Shown here piece after piece: positions 5,372 through 18,573 of a stretch of 64,000 nucleotides of DNA. The translations under genes and the position numbers were made by a program. The notes below the pieces were generated by a model that worked only from the letters and a program-made list of their open reading frames with translations, had not been told where the DNA came from and searched no databases. The DNA comes from Abyssalbus ytuae (GTDB lineage: Bacteria > Bacteroidota > Bacteroidia > Flavobacteriales > Flavobacteriaceae), in the NCBI RefSeq assembly GCF_022807975.1, contig NZ_CP094358.1:1922001-1986000 (forward strand), written 5' to 3'. Position 1 is the stretch's first letter. Every line of letters starts with the position of its first letter.

Positions 5372-5424
5372 TACGAAAAAATTTGTCATACCTTTAGCCA
5401 CAAAATATATTATATCAGTTTGAT

Positions 5425-5590
5425 TAAGGTTTAACTTAAGGTTAATTAATAGGGAATTGTGTGAGAATCACAAGCTGTCGCGCAACTGTAAGTAACTTTT
5501 AAGTTTTTTATCATAAAAAAATCCACTGTTAAAATTTTTTGACGGGAAGGAAGATAAAAAATGTTACAAGCCAGGAGACCTGCCTTACAT
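5425..5590 (+). promoter_or_regulatory. Cobalamin (adenosylcobalamin-class) riboswitch upstream of metE
   Basis: The conserved core elements are present in order: AGGGAA at 5451-5456, a small hairpin GTGTGAGAATCAC, then GCTGTCGCGCAACTGTAA at 5474-5491, and the B12 box GCCAGGAGACCTGCC at 5570-5584. They match the well-known cobalamin aptamer. The gene downstream is the B12-independent methionine synthase, a classical target that is switched off when B12 is available. The aptamer ends about 180 bases before metE. I see no obvious intrinsic terminator in that gap, only a weak GCTTT/AAAGC hairpin at 5603-5620, so the mode of switching is unclear. Confidence 0.93.
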
Positions 5591-5768
5591 CATAATGATT
5601 ATGCTTTCGCGATTTAAAGCACTGGTCAAACATTGATGTTTACTCATAATAAAGAACATACGCTCTACAAAAATTATGAGGATAATATCTGTATTTCCTT
5701 CTTAAAATCAGTAAGCATACTATTTAACTAAAAGTTTAAAAAATTAAATCAATTAAACCTTTAAATGT

Positions 5769-8084
5769 ATGATTACTCAAATTCTTGGTTATCCCCGAAT
5801 AGGGGAAAAAAGAGAGCTCAAAAAAGCTTGTGAAGCTTATTGGGCAGGAAAAATTTCTCAAAAAGAGCTTTTTGAAGTTTCAAAAAATATTAAAAAAGCC
5901 AATTGGGAAATTCAAAAAAAACAGGGTATAGATTTGATACCTTCCAACGATTTTTCATTTTATGACCAGGTTCTGGACATGACGCTAACATTGGGCGCCA
6001 TACCTGAGAGATTTGAAAAACTGGTTGAAAAAGATATGAATAAAACCGATTTGTATTTTGCCATGGCCAGAGGATATCAAAAAAACGGACTGGACATAAT
6101 AGCCATGGAAATGACAAAATGGTTTAATACCAATTACCATTATATAGTACCGGAATTTAAAAAAAATCAAAATTTTGAATTCTCCTCATCTAAAATCATT
6201 GACGATTATAAGGAAGCATTGGAATTGGGAATTAAAACAAAACCGGTTCTTATTGGCCCTGTGTCATTTTTATTACTTGGAAAAGAAAAAGAGGAAGGAT
6301 TTGATAAACTGGAACTAATCAATAATTTAATTCCAGCCTATATTTCTATTTTAAAAGAGTTAGAAACTTTAAAAGTAGACTGGATTCAAATTGACGAACC
6401 TTTTTTAACCACTGATTTAAGCACTAAAGAAAAAGAAATATACGCATGGGTGTACAATCAATTTGCTACACAGGTACCTTCAGTTAAATTATTGCTTACC
6501 TCTTATTTTGATGGTTTAAAAGACAATGCCGAAACGGTTGTAAATCTTCCTGTAGCAGGCATACACCTGGATTTAACCTCAGATGAAGATCAACTAGACG
6601 AAATATTAAATATATTTCCCCCTCAAAAATTTCTTTCCCTGGGGTTGGTTAACGGAAGAAATGTTTGGAAGAACAGCTATAAAGCTTCTTTATCCAAAAT
6701 AAATACTGCAGCCAAAAAATTGGGCGGAGAAAGAATAATTATTTCTACTTCCTGCTCTTTACTCCATACTCCATACAATCTGGATAATGAAAACGATATT
6801 AAAAGTTTACCGCCGGAAATAAAAAACCGGATGGCCTTTGCCAAACAAAAAATAACAGAGCTCAGCCACCTTAAATTATTAGCTGATCCTATAACATTTA
6901 ATGAAAATGAAGATATTTTAACCCATAATAATGCTCTTTTAAAAAGTAGAGATCATTCTACATTAATTCATAAACCCCAAATAAAAAACCGGGTAAAAAA
7001 CCTGACCGATGATAGTGTCCACCGAAAGAGTACTTTTGCAATCCGGCAAAAATATCAAAAAGAATTATTTAACTTTCCTCTGTTTCCCACTACGACTATA
7101 GGTTCTTTTCCTCAAACACCGGAAGTTAGAAAAAAAAGAAATCAATTAAAAAAAGGAGAAATTTCTCTTAATGAGTATAATGAATTTATAAAAAATGAAA
7201 TTAAAGAATGTATACAATTTCAGGAAGAAATAGATTTAGATGTGCTGGTACATGGAGAGTTTGAAAGAAACGATATGGTAGAGTTTTTCGGAGAACAGCT
7301 TGATGGTTTTGCTTTTACCCAAAATGGCTGGGTGCAAAGTTACGGCTCAAGAGCAGTGAAACCCCCGATAATATACGGTGATGTGGAAAGGAAAGCTCCT
7401 ATGACCGTAAACTGGTCTGCCTATGCACAGTCCCTGACAAAAAAGCATGTAAAAGGAATGCTTACCGGCCCTATAACTATTTTACAATGGTCTTTTGTAA
7501 GAGATGACCAGCCAAGAAAAACCACTGCTTTTCAAATTGCTTTGGCCATAAGGGATGAAGTGTCCGACCTTGAAAAAGCTGGCATTCACATTATCCAGAT
7601 AGATGAACCTGCCATACGGGAAGGTTTACCTTTAAGAGCAGCCGATAAAAAAGAATATCTGAGCTGGGCAGTACAAGCTTTTAAAATAAGCTCTTCGGGA
7701 GTGAAGGACTCTACACAAATTCACACTCATATGTGCTATTCAGAATTTAATGAAATAATAGAACATATAGCTCAAATGGATGCTGATGTTATTACTATTG
7801 AAACTTCACGATCTCATATGGAATTGCTTGAAGTTTTTAAAGTATTTAAATACCCTAACGAAATTGGCCCGGGTGTATACGATATTCATTCTCCCAGGGT
7901 ACCTACCGAAGAAGAAATGGAACAATTAATTCAAAAAGCCTCTTCACTTTTATCTCCTGAACAAATTTGGGTAAACCCGGATTGTGGACTAAAAACCAGG
8001 AATTGGGAAGAAACAATGCTCGCTCTGAAAAACATGGTAAATGCTGCTAAAAATTACCGGAGAAAACTTCTAATAAATGCTTAA
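5769..8084 (+). CDS. metE: Cobalamin-independent methionine synthase (5-methyltetrahydropteroyltriglutamate-homocysteine methyltransferase)
   Basis: The 771-residue protein has the duplicated two-barrel layout of MetE. The N-terminal half begins ITQILGYPRIGEKRELK, a folate-binding motif. The C-terminal half carries TTIGSFPQTPEVRK, the zinc-site HMCYSEF (His and Cys), a conserved Glu region VITIETSRSHMELL and the last zinc ligand in NPDCGLKTR. It transfers a methyl group from methyl-tetrahydrofolate to homocysteine in the cytoplasm. Its control by a cobalamin riboswitch suggests that the cell also has a B12-dependent MetH, outside this window. Normal length; no defects seen. Confidence 0.98.
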   Translation: MITQILGYPRIGEKRELKKACEAYWAGKISQKELFEVSKNIKKANWEIQKKQGIDLIPSNDFSFYDQVLDMTLTLGAIPERFEKLVEKDMNKTDLYFAMARGYQKNGLDIIAMEMTKWFNTNYHYIVPEFKKNQNFEFSSSKIIDDYKEALELGIKTKPVLIGPVSFLLLGKEKEEGFDKLELINNLIPAYISILKELETLKVDWIQIDEPFLTTDLSTKEKEIYAWVYNQFATQVPSVKLLLTSYFDGLKDNAETVVNLPVAGIHLDLTSDEDQLDEILNIFPPQKFLSLGLVNGRNVWKNSYKASLSKINTAAKKLGGERIIISTSCSLLHTPYNLDNENDIKSLPPEIKNRMAFAKQKITELSHLKLLADPITFNENEDILTHNNALLKSRDHSTLIHKPQIKNRVKNLTDDSVHRKSTFAIRQKYQKELFNFPLFPTTTIGSFPQTPEVRKKRNQLKKGEISLNEYNEFIKNEIKECIQFQEEIDLDVLVHGEFERNDMVEFFGEQLDGFAFTQNGWVQSYGSRAVKPPIIYGDVERKAPMTVNWSAYAQSLTKKHVKGMLTGPITILQWSFVRDDQPRKTTAFQIALAIRDEVSDLEKAGIHIIQIDEPAIREGLPLRAADKKEYLSWAVQAFKISSSGVKDSTQIHTHMCYSEFNEIIEHIAQMDADVITIETSRSHMELLEVFKVFKYPNEIGPGVYDIHSPRVPTEEEMEQLIQKASSLLSPEQIWVNPDCGLKTRNWEETMLALKNMVNAAKNYRRKLLINA

Positions 8085-15311: not shown

Positions 15312-17210
15312 ATGAGTGACATTATTAAGCATGAATGCGGTATCGCAATGGTTAGGCTCTTAAAACCATTAGATTATTACAGGGATAAATACGGAACTGC
15401 ATTTTATGGCATAAATAAAATGTATTTGATGATGGAGAAACAGCACAACAGAGGACAAGATGGTGCAGGTTTTGCCAGCATAAAATTAAATATGCAGCCC
15501 GGAGAACGTTATATGAGCAGGGTGAGATCTAACCAGCCTCAGCCTATTCAGGATATTTTTAAACAAATAAATGAAAGAATTAACGGGGTTCTAACCGAAA
15601 ACCCTGAATATTCAAACAGTAGTAACGACCTTAAAAAAAACATCCCTTACCTGGGTGAACTTATGCTAGGCCATGTACGATACGGCACTTTTGGAAAAAA
15701 CAGTATAGAAAGTGTACATCCTTTTTTGAGACAAAATAACTGGATGCACAGAAACCTCATAGTTGCAGGAAACTTTAATATGACTAATGTAAATGAACTT
15801 TTCGACAATCTGATTCGTTTAGGACAGCATCCCAAAGAAAAAGCTGATACTATAACGGTCATGGAAAAGATTGGTCACTTTTTAGATGATGCTGTAGCAA
15901 AGCTCTACAAACAGATAAAAAATGAAGGCTATAATAAATTAGAGGCTTCACCCATCATTGCTGAAAGGCTTAATGTTGCCAAAATATTAAAAAAAGCTGC
16001 CAAAAACTGGGATGGAGGTTACGCTATGGCCGGGTTGCTGGGACATGGAGATGCTTTTGTGTTACGTGATCCTGCAGGAATCAGGCCTGCCTATTACTAC
16101 AAAGATGACGAAGTAGTGGTTATTGCTTCGGAAAGGCCGGTTATACAAACAGTATTTAATGTCCCTTTTCATTCTATTGCCGAACTGGATCCTGGTAAAG
16201 CAATTATTATAAAAAAAGAAGGAGATGTGGCAATTAAAAGAATACTGGAACCTCTGGAAAGAAAAGCTTGTTCCTTTGAGCGGATTTATTTTTCCAGAGG
16301 GAGTGATGCCGAAATTTATGAAGAAAGAAAGAATTTAGGAAGACTGTTGTTTCCCAAAATACAGGAAGCAATAAACGGAGATATTGAAAACACAGTATTT
16401 TCATATATCCCCAATACGGCAGAAACCTCTTTTTTTGGCATGGTAAAACAAGCACAGGATTTTCTTAATAAAAAGAAAGAAGAGCTTATTTTAAAAGAAG
16501 GGACTTCTCTAACCAGTGAAAAACTTCACGAAATACTGTCCGTAAGACCCAGAATTGAAAAGGTCGCAATTAAAGATGCCAAATTAAGAACTTTTATAAC
16601 TGAGGATAGCAGCAGGGACGATCTTGTAGCTCATGTATATGACATAACTTACGGTTCGGTAAAGCCTACTGATAATCTTGTAATTATAGATGACAGCATT
16701 GTAAGAGGAACTACCTTAAAGAAAAGTATTTTAAAAATACTTGACAGACTACATCCTAAAAATATTATCGTAGTATCCTCAGCCCCGCAAATAAGATATC
16801 CTGACTGCTACGGTATTGATATGGCAAGACTCGAAGATTTGGTGGCCTTTAGAGCAGCATTAGCATTACACAAAGAAAAAGGATCGTATAATATAGTAGA
16901 AAATATTTACCATAAATGTAAATCTCAGGTGGATTATCAGGATATTGATGTGATCAATGCGGTAAAAGAACTTTACCTTCCTTTTACAGATGAGGAAATA
17001 TCCGATAAAATTGGTCAGCTTCTAAGCCCGCAAGATATAAAAGCAAAAGTTAAAATAATTTTTCAAACGGTGGATAATCTTCATAAAGCATGCCCAAAAC
17101 ATTTAGGAGATTGGTATTTTACAGGAGAGTATCCTACGCCTGGGGGTAACAGGGTAGTTAATCGTGCTTTTATCAATTTTTATGAAGGAAATAAAGAACG
17201 GGCTTACTAA
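15312..17210 (+). CDS. purF: PurF-type amidophosphoribosyltransferase, long Bacteroidota form
   Basis: The 632-residue protein has a class II glutamine amidotransferase domain whose catalytic Cys is residue 9 (IKHECGIAMV), so a short leader peptide must be removed, as in Bacillus PurF. HNRGQDGAG and LGHVRYGTFG are glutaminase motifs. The C-terminal phosphoribosyltransferase domain has the PRPP loop NLVIIDDSIVRGTTLK and SSAPQIRYPDCYGID. It converts PRPP and glutamine to phosphoribosylamine. It is about 130 residues longer than E. coli PurF, with extra segments in the glutaminase half and the C-terminus. A second, shorter PurF may exist elsewhere in the genome, so this could be a paralogue. Confidence 0.85.
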   Translation: MSDIIKHECGIAMVRLLKPLDYYRDKYGTAFYGINKMYLMMEKQHNRGQDGAGFASIKLNMQPGERYMSRVRSNQPQPIQDIFKQINERINGVLTENPEYSNSSNDLKKNIPYLGELMLGHVRYGTFGKNSIESVHPFLRQNNWMHRNLIVAGNFNMTNVNELFDNLIRLGQHPKEKADTITVMEKIGHFLDDAVAKLYKQIKNEGYNKLEASPIIAERLNVAKILKKAAKNWDGGYAMAGLLGHGDAFVLRDPAGIRPAYYYKDDEVVVIASERPVIQTVFNVPFHSIAELDPGKAIIIKKEGDVAIKRILEPLERKACSFERIYFSRGSDAEIYEERKNLGRLLFPKIQEAINGDIENTVFSYIPNTAETSFFGMVKQAQDFLNKKKEELILKEGTSLTSEKLHEILSVRPRIEKVAIKDAKLRTFITEDSSRDDLVAHVYDITYGSVKPTDNLVIIDDSIVRGTTLKKSILKILDRLHPKNIIVVSSAPQIRYPDCYGIDMARLEDLVAFRAALALHKEKGSYNIVENIYHKCKSQVDYQDIDVINAVKELYLPFTDEEISDKIGQLLSPQDIKAKVKIIFQTVDNLHKACPKHLGDWYFTGEYPTPGGNRVVNRAFINFYEGNKERAY

Positions 17211-17298
17211 CGTATTGTTATTCAGTTTATTTTAACAAATAAATTGAACAGTTTAACTGATTTTTTAGATTTCAAGAAAAACTTTACTGTATATTTGA
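17211..17298. other. Gene-free stretch before the first repeated element
   Basis: No gene is seen. The stretch holds the -7 box TATATTTG at 17290-17297, which precedes copy 1 of the repeated element by one base. The whole gap from purF to sodA (17211-17964) is non-coding apart from the three repeated elements; the spacers between them are AT-rich, without open frames of note. Confidence 0.6.
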
Positions 17299-17380
17299 AT
17301 CACCATAGCATAAGTAGGTTAAGTTCATGGTAAGATTTGGGGCAAAAAAAGGTGGAATTTCTTCCACCTTTTTTATTTTT
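17299..17380 (+). ncRNA. Putative small RNA, copy 1 of 3
   Basis: An 82-base element found three times in 650 bases. It starts ATCACCATAGCATAAG one base after a perfect -7 box (TATATTTG). ACCAT and ATGGT can pair around a 20-base loop. The 3' end is an intrinsic terminator: GGTGGAA and TTCCACC around a TTTC loop, flanked by A7 and T6. The transcript would be about 75 nt. I do not recognise it as a named RNA family. Copies 1 and 2 are identical over their whole length. Confidence 0.7.
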
Positions 17381-17642
17381 ATATAAATCACTTTTTGGAG
17401 AGTGATGTATTATCAGAACTTAAAGTTTGCATAATAACTTTACTAGAGAATAAAATCAAATTATATTTCCACCTGATAATTCCTTTAATTATTACAAATA
17501 ATACATGATTAAAATGTGATGTTTAAAAGCTTAAAAACCACATGGTTATTTGTTAAAAAAATCAAAATTAGTGCATTTCATCTAAAATATTAGCATTATA
17601 TCACATTTTTTTTACGGTTTTACCTCATTCGTCTACTTTCGT

Positions 17643-17724
17643 ATCACCATAGCATAAGTAGGTTAAGTTCATGGTAAGATTTGGGGCAAAAAAAGGTGGA
17701 ATTTCTTCCACCTTTTTTATTTTT
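17643..17724 (+). ncRNA. Putative small RNA, copy 2 of 3
   Basis: Identical to copy 1 over all 82 bases, including the 5' hairpin arms and the terminator. It is preceded at the same one-base distance by TACTTTCG (17634-17641), a near match to TAnnTTTG. The flanking spacer sequence is unrelated to that of copy 1, so identity stops at the element borders. Confidence 0.7.
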
Positions 17725-17868
17725 AACCAAACCTTTTTTGAAAAATTCATCTTTATAAACTATTGAGTGTTAATTTTTTAAAATCTTAATTTAAATATGT
17801 CTTTCGTCTAAATTTTTGGTAATATAACTGATTTTTTTTGAGGAAATAACAAACAGCAATACTTTCAC

Positions 17869-17950
17869 ATCACCATAGCATAAGTAGGTTAAGTTCATGG
17901 TAAGATTTGGGGCAAAAAAAAGGTGGAATCTCTTCCACCTTTTTATTTTT
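17869..17950 (+). ncRNA. Putative small RNA, copy 3 of 3
   Basis: Differs from copies 1 and 2 by one extra A before the terminator stem, one fewer T after it, and a T-to-C change in the terminator loop (TCTC). The stem is untouched. It is preceded at one base by TACTTTCA (17860-17867), with TTG at 17838-17840 exactly 19 bases further upstream, a full Bacteroidota promoter. Its terminator also faces the 3' end of sodA and could end both transcripts. Confidence 0.7.
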
Positions 17951-17964
17951 ATATCACTTTTTCT

Positions 17965-18573
17965 TTATTTATTCAAACTGTAAAGTTCAGCAACTTTTTC
18001 CCAATTAATAACATTATAAAACGCCTCTATATAATCCGGCCTTCTATTTTGATAGTTTAAATAATATGCATGTTCCCATACATCAATTCCTAATATAGGG
18101 AAACCTTCACAGCCTACATCTGGCATTAAAGGGTTATCCTGGTTAGGTGTAGAGCATACTTCTACCTTACCTCCCTTATGAACACAAAGCCATGCCCAAC
18201 CTGAACCAAATCGGGTAGCCGCAGCTTTAGAAAATTTTTCTTTAAAAGCATCAAAAGAACCGAATGCTTTGTCTATAGCAGCAGCCACTTCACCTGTAGG
18301 GGTTCCGCCTCCTTGAGGGGACATAATTTCCCAGAATAATCGGTGATTATAAAATCCTCCCCCATTATTCCTTACAGCCATATTACTCATGTCAAGTTCT
18401 GTAAGAATCTCTTCTATGGTTTTTCCTTCCAAATCAGTACCTGAAATAGCATTATTAAGATTATTTGTATAACCTGCATGATGTTTGGTATGATGAATCT
18501 CCATTGTCCTTGCATCAACATGAGGTTCTAGAGCATCATACGCATATGTTAATTTTGGTAACTCAAAAGCCAT
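17965..18573 (-). CDS. sodA: Superoxide dismutase (Fe/Mn type)
   Basis: The 202-residue protein is a complete Fe/Mn superoxide dismutase. Metal ligands appear in [18 protein letters not shown] and [26 protein letters not shown] at the start and [14 protein letters not shown] at the end are typical. Metal choice cannot be settled from these motifs. No signal peptide, so it acts in the cytoplasm. It is divergent from the AddA-like gene, and a TAAATTTG box lies upstream on its strand (18614-18621). Its 3' end faces the bidirectional terminator of small-RNA copy 3. Confidence 0.96.

Follow-up and report, generated by a model that had tools for sequence, protein, structure and literature searches.

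Probable tandem small RNA genes between purF and sodA in Flavobacteriaceae with predicted pairing to surface-protein mRNA starts

The interval between purF and sodA in the window, the whole 64,000-nucleotide stretch of the Abyssalbus ytuae chromosome analyzed here, holds three tandem copies of an 82-bp element, as found by direct reading and a repeat search. The anatomy of the copies as small RNA (sRNA) genes, their conservation, their synteny and a conserved complementarity to mRNAs in Flavobacterium are established by computation. The copies are likely the genes of a ~73-nt trans-acting sRNA that belongs to the core features of the family Flavobacteriaceae and would block translation initiation at surface-protein mRNAs. 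We infer both the transcription of the sRNA and repression, rather than activation, as its effect. A conserved RNA from one locus paired with a conserved site on a named mRNA class would provide a direct handle on how the cell surface is set, and would let sRNA action be tested cleanly in a setting with non-Shine-Dalgarno initiation signals. To our knowledge, few small RNAs of the Flavobacteriaceae have a known function. A study of Flavobacterium psychrophilum calls the family understudied and describes translation in these bacteria as starting by signals other than Shine-Dalgarno (PMC9723704).

The purF–sodA locus and the anatomy of the copies

The copies start at 17299, 17643 and 17869, thus 344 and 226 nt apart. 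Over 83 nt, copy 2 has the same sequence as copy 1, and copy 3, which has an additional A in the A-run ahead of the terminator plus changes in the terminator itself, is 97% identical across 86 nt. An initial annotation of this DNA had described three near-identical 82-bp copies between purF and sodA, two identical and one slightly different, each with a separate -7 box and terminator, and reading and the repeat search bear out this description. In F. psychrophilum, the Bacteroidota-type -7 box has been mapped at -12 to -5 (PMC9723704). If the boxes sit at that position here, transcription would begin at 17302, 17646 and 17872, the same starts that the initial annotation had proposed, and the RNA is ~73 nt long. 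The features of the locus are as follows.

15312 to 17210, forward strand: purF, upstream neighbor; conserved in relatives
17290 to 17297, forward strand: -7 box of copy 1, TATATTTG; direct reading, spacing conserved in relatives
17302 to 17374, forward strand: predicted sRNA copy 1; from the predicted first base, A17302, to the end of the terminator T-run
17303 to 17341, forward strand: conserved 5' core of copy 1 (CCATAG...TTTGGG); 5' hairpin and G-rich linker, predicted target-pairing region
17345 to 17374, forward strand: intrinsic terminator of copy 1 (GGTGGAA/TTCCACC); arms 17345-17357/17362-17374, from the repeat search and folding
17634 to 17641, forward strand: -7 box of copy 2, TACTTTCG; direct reading, spacing conserved in relatives
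17646 to 17718, forward strand: predicted sRNA copy 2; same sequence as copy 1
17689 to 17718, forward strand: intrinsic terminator of copy 2; arms 17689-17701/17706-17718, from the repeat search and folding
17860 to 17867, forward strand: -7 box of copy 3, TACTTTCA; preceded by TTTG-N19, spacing conserved in relatives
17872 to 17947, forward strand: predicted sRNA copy 3; extra A, altered terminator
17914 to 17947, forward strand: intrinsic terminator of copy 3; arms 17914-17928/17933-17947, from the repeat search and folding
17965 to 18573, reverse strand: sodA, convergent neighbor; conserved in relatives

Each copy ends in a GC-rich stem and then T-runs. Folding predicts two stem-loops per sRNA, with energies over 75 nt of -21.3, -21.3 and -20.4 kcal/mol for copies 1, 2 and 3 (z -3.19, -3.19 and -2.89). 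The 5' 43 nt would form a weak hairpin, closed by CCAU/AUGG around a 20-nt loop, followed by the linker AAGAUUUGGGGCAAA. A riboswitch or attenuator is unlikely because the same strand carries no downstream gene; sodA is convergent, and three terminators stand in succession.

Spread and conservation in the Flavobacteriaceae

BLAST searches with copy 1 detected the element in 203 of 249 sampled family genomes, its own genome counted, and in 181 of the 210 genomes of good quality. Synteny was read in 29 relative loci, those with the best scores. All 29 have PurF as the adjacent gene, and 28 contain SodA (the exception is L007). These loci hold one to five tandem copies in the same direction as purF, terminator-only matches having been dropped before the copies were counted. 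Exceptions to a single locus include G007, G240 and G094, which are among the genomes with copies at separate places.

Copy statistics were drawn from 100 copies in 30 loci (the 29 best-scoring relatives and the window). In 77 copies the first 39 nt match those of the window exactly (CCATAGCATAAGTAGGTTAAGTTCATGGTAAGATTTGGG), and 22 of the remaining 23 form one subclass with C24 changed to T. A TAnnTT[TAC][AG] box ends 5 or 6 nt ahead of CCA in 98 copies, the base preceding CCA is a purine (A or G) in all 100, and a loose test finds a terminator-like end in 100 of 101 sequences, L004 included. The terminator stems vary between copies yet remain paired. An own promoter at a fixed distance and an own intrinsic terminator, both marks of an sRNA gene, are therefore present. 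The promoter position, purine start, terminator, synteny and conserved first 39 nt all favor a small RNA over a peptide, as had been proposed from the sequence of the window, and over a dispersed repeat.

By promoter and linker the copies fall into three subclasses, and in one of them (22 copies) the promoter, TTTGTTATTTCNCACAATACCAGTAATTTAG, is strongly conserved. In class B copies, found in many of L009-L034 and usually nearest sodA, the promoter spacer ATTTCNCACAATACCAG is almost as conserved as the RNA and looks like an operator. Flavobacterium copies diverge more from the window, with roughly four differences, one of them a single-base deletion. A sequence-only model run on 395 genomes of the phylum matched 55, comprising 34 from the family, one of them only marginal, and 21 from other families, all only marginal (best E 0.006); at least seven family genomes had no match.

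Complementarity to surface-protein mRNA leaders

Weak matches of the model fell antisense across gene starts and so led to candidate targets. Under a fixed rule, antisense placement on starts occurred in 9 of 34 family matches vs 2 of 22 in other families, a survey that serves as a lead only given its Fisher p of 0.17. The survey left out copies within the arrays as well as three own-genome relatives of the sRNA (3168159, 3167847 and 1824969), and G609 and G125, start-antisense and outside the fixed rule, were read by eye. The start-antisense genes of CAP-type lipoproteins came from G394 (twice), G382, G574, G313 and G609 in the Flavobacterium group and from G042 in another genus. These seven genes encode proteins of 166-171 aa, with a CAP domain in all six tested; the seventh (G313) aligns with them. 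In G125 (L274, ~1662, reverse strand), 23 nt perfectly complementary to the sRNA of the same genome end 5 nt ahead of the ATG of a 42-codon frame.

Pairing was then evaluated in the best 80 of 310 CAP (PF00188) loci, 77 of them labelled Flavobacterium and some two per genome. The query proteins had been chosen because their leaders matched the sRNA, and the 80 loci are not independent events because the species are related. Ahead of the start codon, CAP leaders carry TTTGCCCCA..AT.TACTTTAA..tTAAacTaC, complementary to the sRNA with a few interruptions; in many leaders the pairing is interrupted. Against the 5' 43 nt of the Flavobacterium-type sRNA, the predicted pairing is -20 kcal/mol or stronger for 76 of 80 leaders and -25 kcal/mol or stronger for 75 (median -39.7), and 73 leaders pair more strongly than every one of their 100 shuffled versions. 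Leader shuffles reach -20 in 22% and -25 in 2.3% of cases, only one of 80 reverse-complemented leaders reaches -20 kcal/mol, and across 200 shuffled sRNAs the median never fell under -25.4. As a control, 160 other starts from the same loci gave a median of -15.4, with 26 reaching -20 and 11 reaching -25; by Pfam, ten of those 11 are further CAP genes and one is a response regulator. The window's own sRNA pairs with the CAP leaders at a weaker median of -34.0.

The paired site is also conserved: among the 76 CAP loci that have it, column identity is 0.82 within the site, against 0.61 upstream and 0.65 downstream, figures that leave out the four loci without it (L308, L314, L320 and L366; the tandem CAP paralog in L314 carries the site). 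Conserved complementarity to mRNAs encoded elsewhere, a further mark of an sRNA, is thus found, nearly all of it in Flavobacterium, and there the CAP-domain (PF00188) lipoproteins are the best supported targets. The initial annotation had suggested the loop of the 5' hairpin as a seed. The CAP leaders support a pairing role for this part of the RNA, but the predicted pairing takes up most of the 5' 43 nt and extends beyond the loop. At L290:754-1119, on the reverse strand, lies a gene for a 122-aa response regulator (PF00072) whose leader gives a pairing energy of -35.3 kcal/mol with the sRNA, which makes this gene a possible non-surface target.

From these data, we propose that each copy would be transcribed from its own promoter and stop at its own terminator, and that the 5' 43 nt would pair with leaders of secreted- and surface-protein mRNAs, reaching and often spanning the start codon. 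A duplex at the start region could then block translation initiation, an outcome that is likely because the predicted pairing extends over the leader and, in many cases, the start codon. Several promoters and copies might provide control by dosage and condition.

In the window's own genome, the targets are proposals on thinner evidence. The top candidate is a 1075-aa secreted-looking DUF11-repeat protein (C1:3387384), whose start codon is paired in a predicted duplex of -42.5 kcal/mol; the lowest value from 100 shuffled sRNAs against 627 own-genome starts was -34.0, and the site surfaced in a genome-wide search with the sRNA model at only E 0.16. The next candidate in the sampled part, a T9SS type B protein (-30.7), and the gene behind the DUF11 gene, which encodes at least 2.7 kaa (-27.1), both lie inside the shuffle range. 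Mean pairing over the 627 starts was better for the sRNA than for 60 of 60 shuffles. Over the same starts, the number at -25 or lower was not raised (4 vs 4.4 expected), and k-mer enrichment gave nothing clear; exact own-genome sites (11-mer) were not in excess (140 vs 133; 14 vs 18). No CAP gene was present in the part of the genome read, and the NCBIfam similarity for DalA was under the cut-off.

Three other readings of the copies were weighed against a block of initiation. The sRNA might pair with the same leaders and activate or stabilize the mRNA, for instance by keeping a nuclease away from it or by unfolding the leader. The pairing ends before the start codon in several CAP leaders, and Rfp18, another flavobacterial sRNA, is required for normal levels of two protease mRNAs (PMC9723704); however, many duplexes reach or cover the start codon, where a block of initiation is the simpler outcome, and we regard activation as unlikely. 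Somewhat less probable still is action mainly through a protein, by titration or chaperone binding, with the CAP-leader pairing secondary. Conservation of 39 nt over many genera exceeds the apparent need of one target class and speaks for such a role; against it stand ~40 nt of oriented, leader-specific and conserved complementarity in 76 of 80 CAP loci. That the copies are a non-transcribed dispersed repeat or leftover attenuators is very improbable, although they are indeed a repeated sequence lying between genes. The copies have their own promoters and terminators at one locus common to the 29 relatives read, and no gene follows on the same strand. The initial annotation had named a dispersed repeat as one case that would speak against it. 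That case fails: the purF–sodA locus holds all three full-length elements of the genome, the rest being one partial match of 38 nt at C1:3168167 and diverged relatives that themselves look like sRNA genes.

Relation to described RNAs and diverged relatives

The initial annotation knew no named family with this sequence, and this holds for Rfam 15, in which the element has no match at gathering score. At relaxed thresholds, most matches were due to the terminator (STnc40, sraA), and FopS matched below its cut-off. The Qrr and OmrA/B RNAs of Proteobacteria, which are Hfq-dependent, likewise comprise several similar sRNA genes with separate promoters; the likeness is one of gene arrangement, and the analogy in dosage drawn initially is plausible. 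LhrC of Listeria monocytogenes, a multicopy sRNA that, by the title of its study, regulates a surface adhesin (PMC4132741), belongs to another phylum and is likened here by description. Among the papers searched we recognized no description as this RNA and its sequence fragments found no match; one of the 85 new Rfp RNAs of F. psychrophilum could be the same RNA (PMC9723704). Rfp18 resembles it as a conserved flavobacterial sRNA with predicted secreted-protein targets, but is described there as pairing through a third stem-loop with protease and adhesin targets (PMC9723704). The window's sRNA folds into two predicted stem-loops instead of the three or more of Rfp18, and the two RNAs are set apart by description only.

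The closest comparison within the phylum is with FopS/GibS of Bacteroides, multicopy paralogues with an intrinsic terminator that pair near the start codon of surface-protein mRNAs (PMC11697453). Unlike FopS, the sRNA is mostly arrayed in tandem at one locus, its predicted pairing covers ~40 nt, and its targets would be CAP lipoproteins or other secreted proteins. It is improbable that the sRNA is the Flavobacteriaceae member of the FopS/GibS family (RF04319). In its favor, both RNAs are multicopy, have the stretch UUCAUGGUA..AGAUUU in common and use a canonical promoter, and start codons are the sites where FopS acts (PMC11697453). The local alignment score of the window core against the FopS/GibS R1 seed was reached by 264 of 20000 shuffles, and the 19 own-genome matches to the FopS model include two diverged sRNA relatives (L080, E 0.21; L085, E 4.9). 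The three copies, however, are absent from those 19 matches and score 19.8-22 bits, on the plus strand, against a FopS gathering score of 56. For the Flavobacterium-type core, the score was reached by 9051 of 20000 shuffles, which is no significant similarity, and UUCAU may be shared only because both RNAs match AUGAA starts. No gene for an RRM_1 protein (PF00076; the RbpB-type partner) was found in the genome at E 0.001, with a positive Bacteroides control. The susC/TonB receptors suggested by the FopS analogy, for which 30 of 41 matches over the cut-off were used, pair no better than 627 background genes (mean -12.5 vs -13.7 for sRNA nt 15-45; -13.9 vs -14.8 for nt 1-44, one-sided p 0.95). 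FopS works alike, but by score, RRM_1 partner and susC pairing the sRNA probably stands outside its family. Four places in the window's genome (L076-L079) carry identical sites that match the FopS model via the antisense of a start region; by eye, they are probably copies of one mobile element.

More tentatively, the sRNA might be an ancient, family-wide "anti-start" RNA, usually a one-locus tandem array with promoter subclasses, whose 5' half is a near-complete antisense of changing surface-protein starts, those of CAP lipoproteins in Flavobacterium and, in the window's organism, those of DUF11-repeat and of type-9-secreted proteins. Such an RNA would adjust envelope composition as a whole, acting without an RRM_1 partner, and might have a common origin with Bacteroides FopS in a class that spans the phylum. 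We consider this broader scheme possible but doubtful.

The own genome also contains more diverged relatives, which themselves look like sRNA genes. The motif AAGTTCAT...TTGRGG occurs nine times in the genome vs once for a control pattern; the nine sites are the three copies, five more sRNA-like places and one target site, in the DUF11 gene. Five of the relatives have in common an exact upstream element, ACTTTTTGTA, within the pattern searched, which suggests a shared activator.

1824959 (-), 1825247 (-), 3145302 (-), 3168174 (+), 3521944 (-), also 846180 (+) and 3167847 (-): diverged sRNA relatives; boxes present, clear terminators in most
C1:846180 (+), 1824973 (-), 1825263 (-), 3168095 (+), 3521960 (-), own genome (G000): matches to the ACTTTTTGTA pattern; loci L236 and L244-L247

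In these relatives the 5' arm of the hairpin appears paired with another part of the shared stretch (one folded, the others by eye). Across 149 family genomes, the operator-plus-seed pattern occurs five times in the own genome and once each in seven others, so that none of the other genomes has a set of more than one. In G032, two near-identical elements 307 bp apart (L216 and L275) carry GATTAAGTTCATGATATGATTTGGGGTCAACACTATCAC and are neither clear sRNA genes nor target starts. Elsewhere in the window, positions 5410-5601 match the Cobalamin riboswitch (92.7 bits) ahead of a gene that by eye is metE-like (5769-8084), an arrangement of ordinary B12 control.
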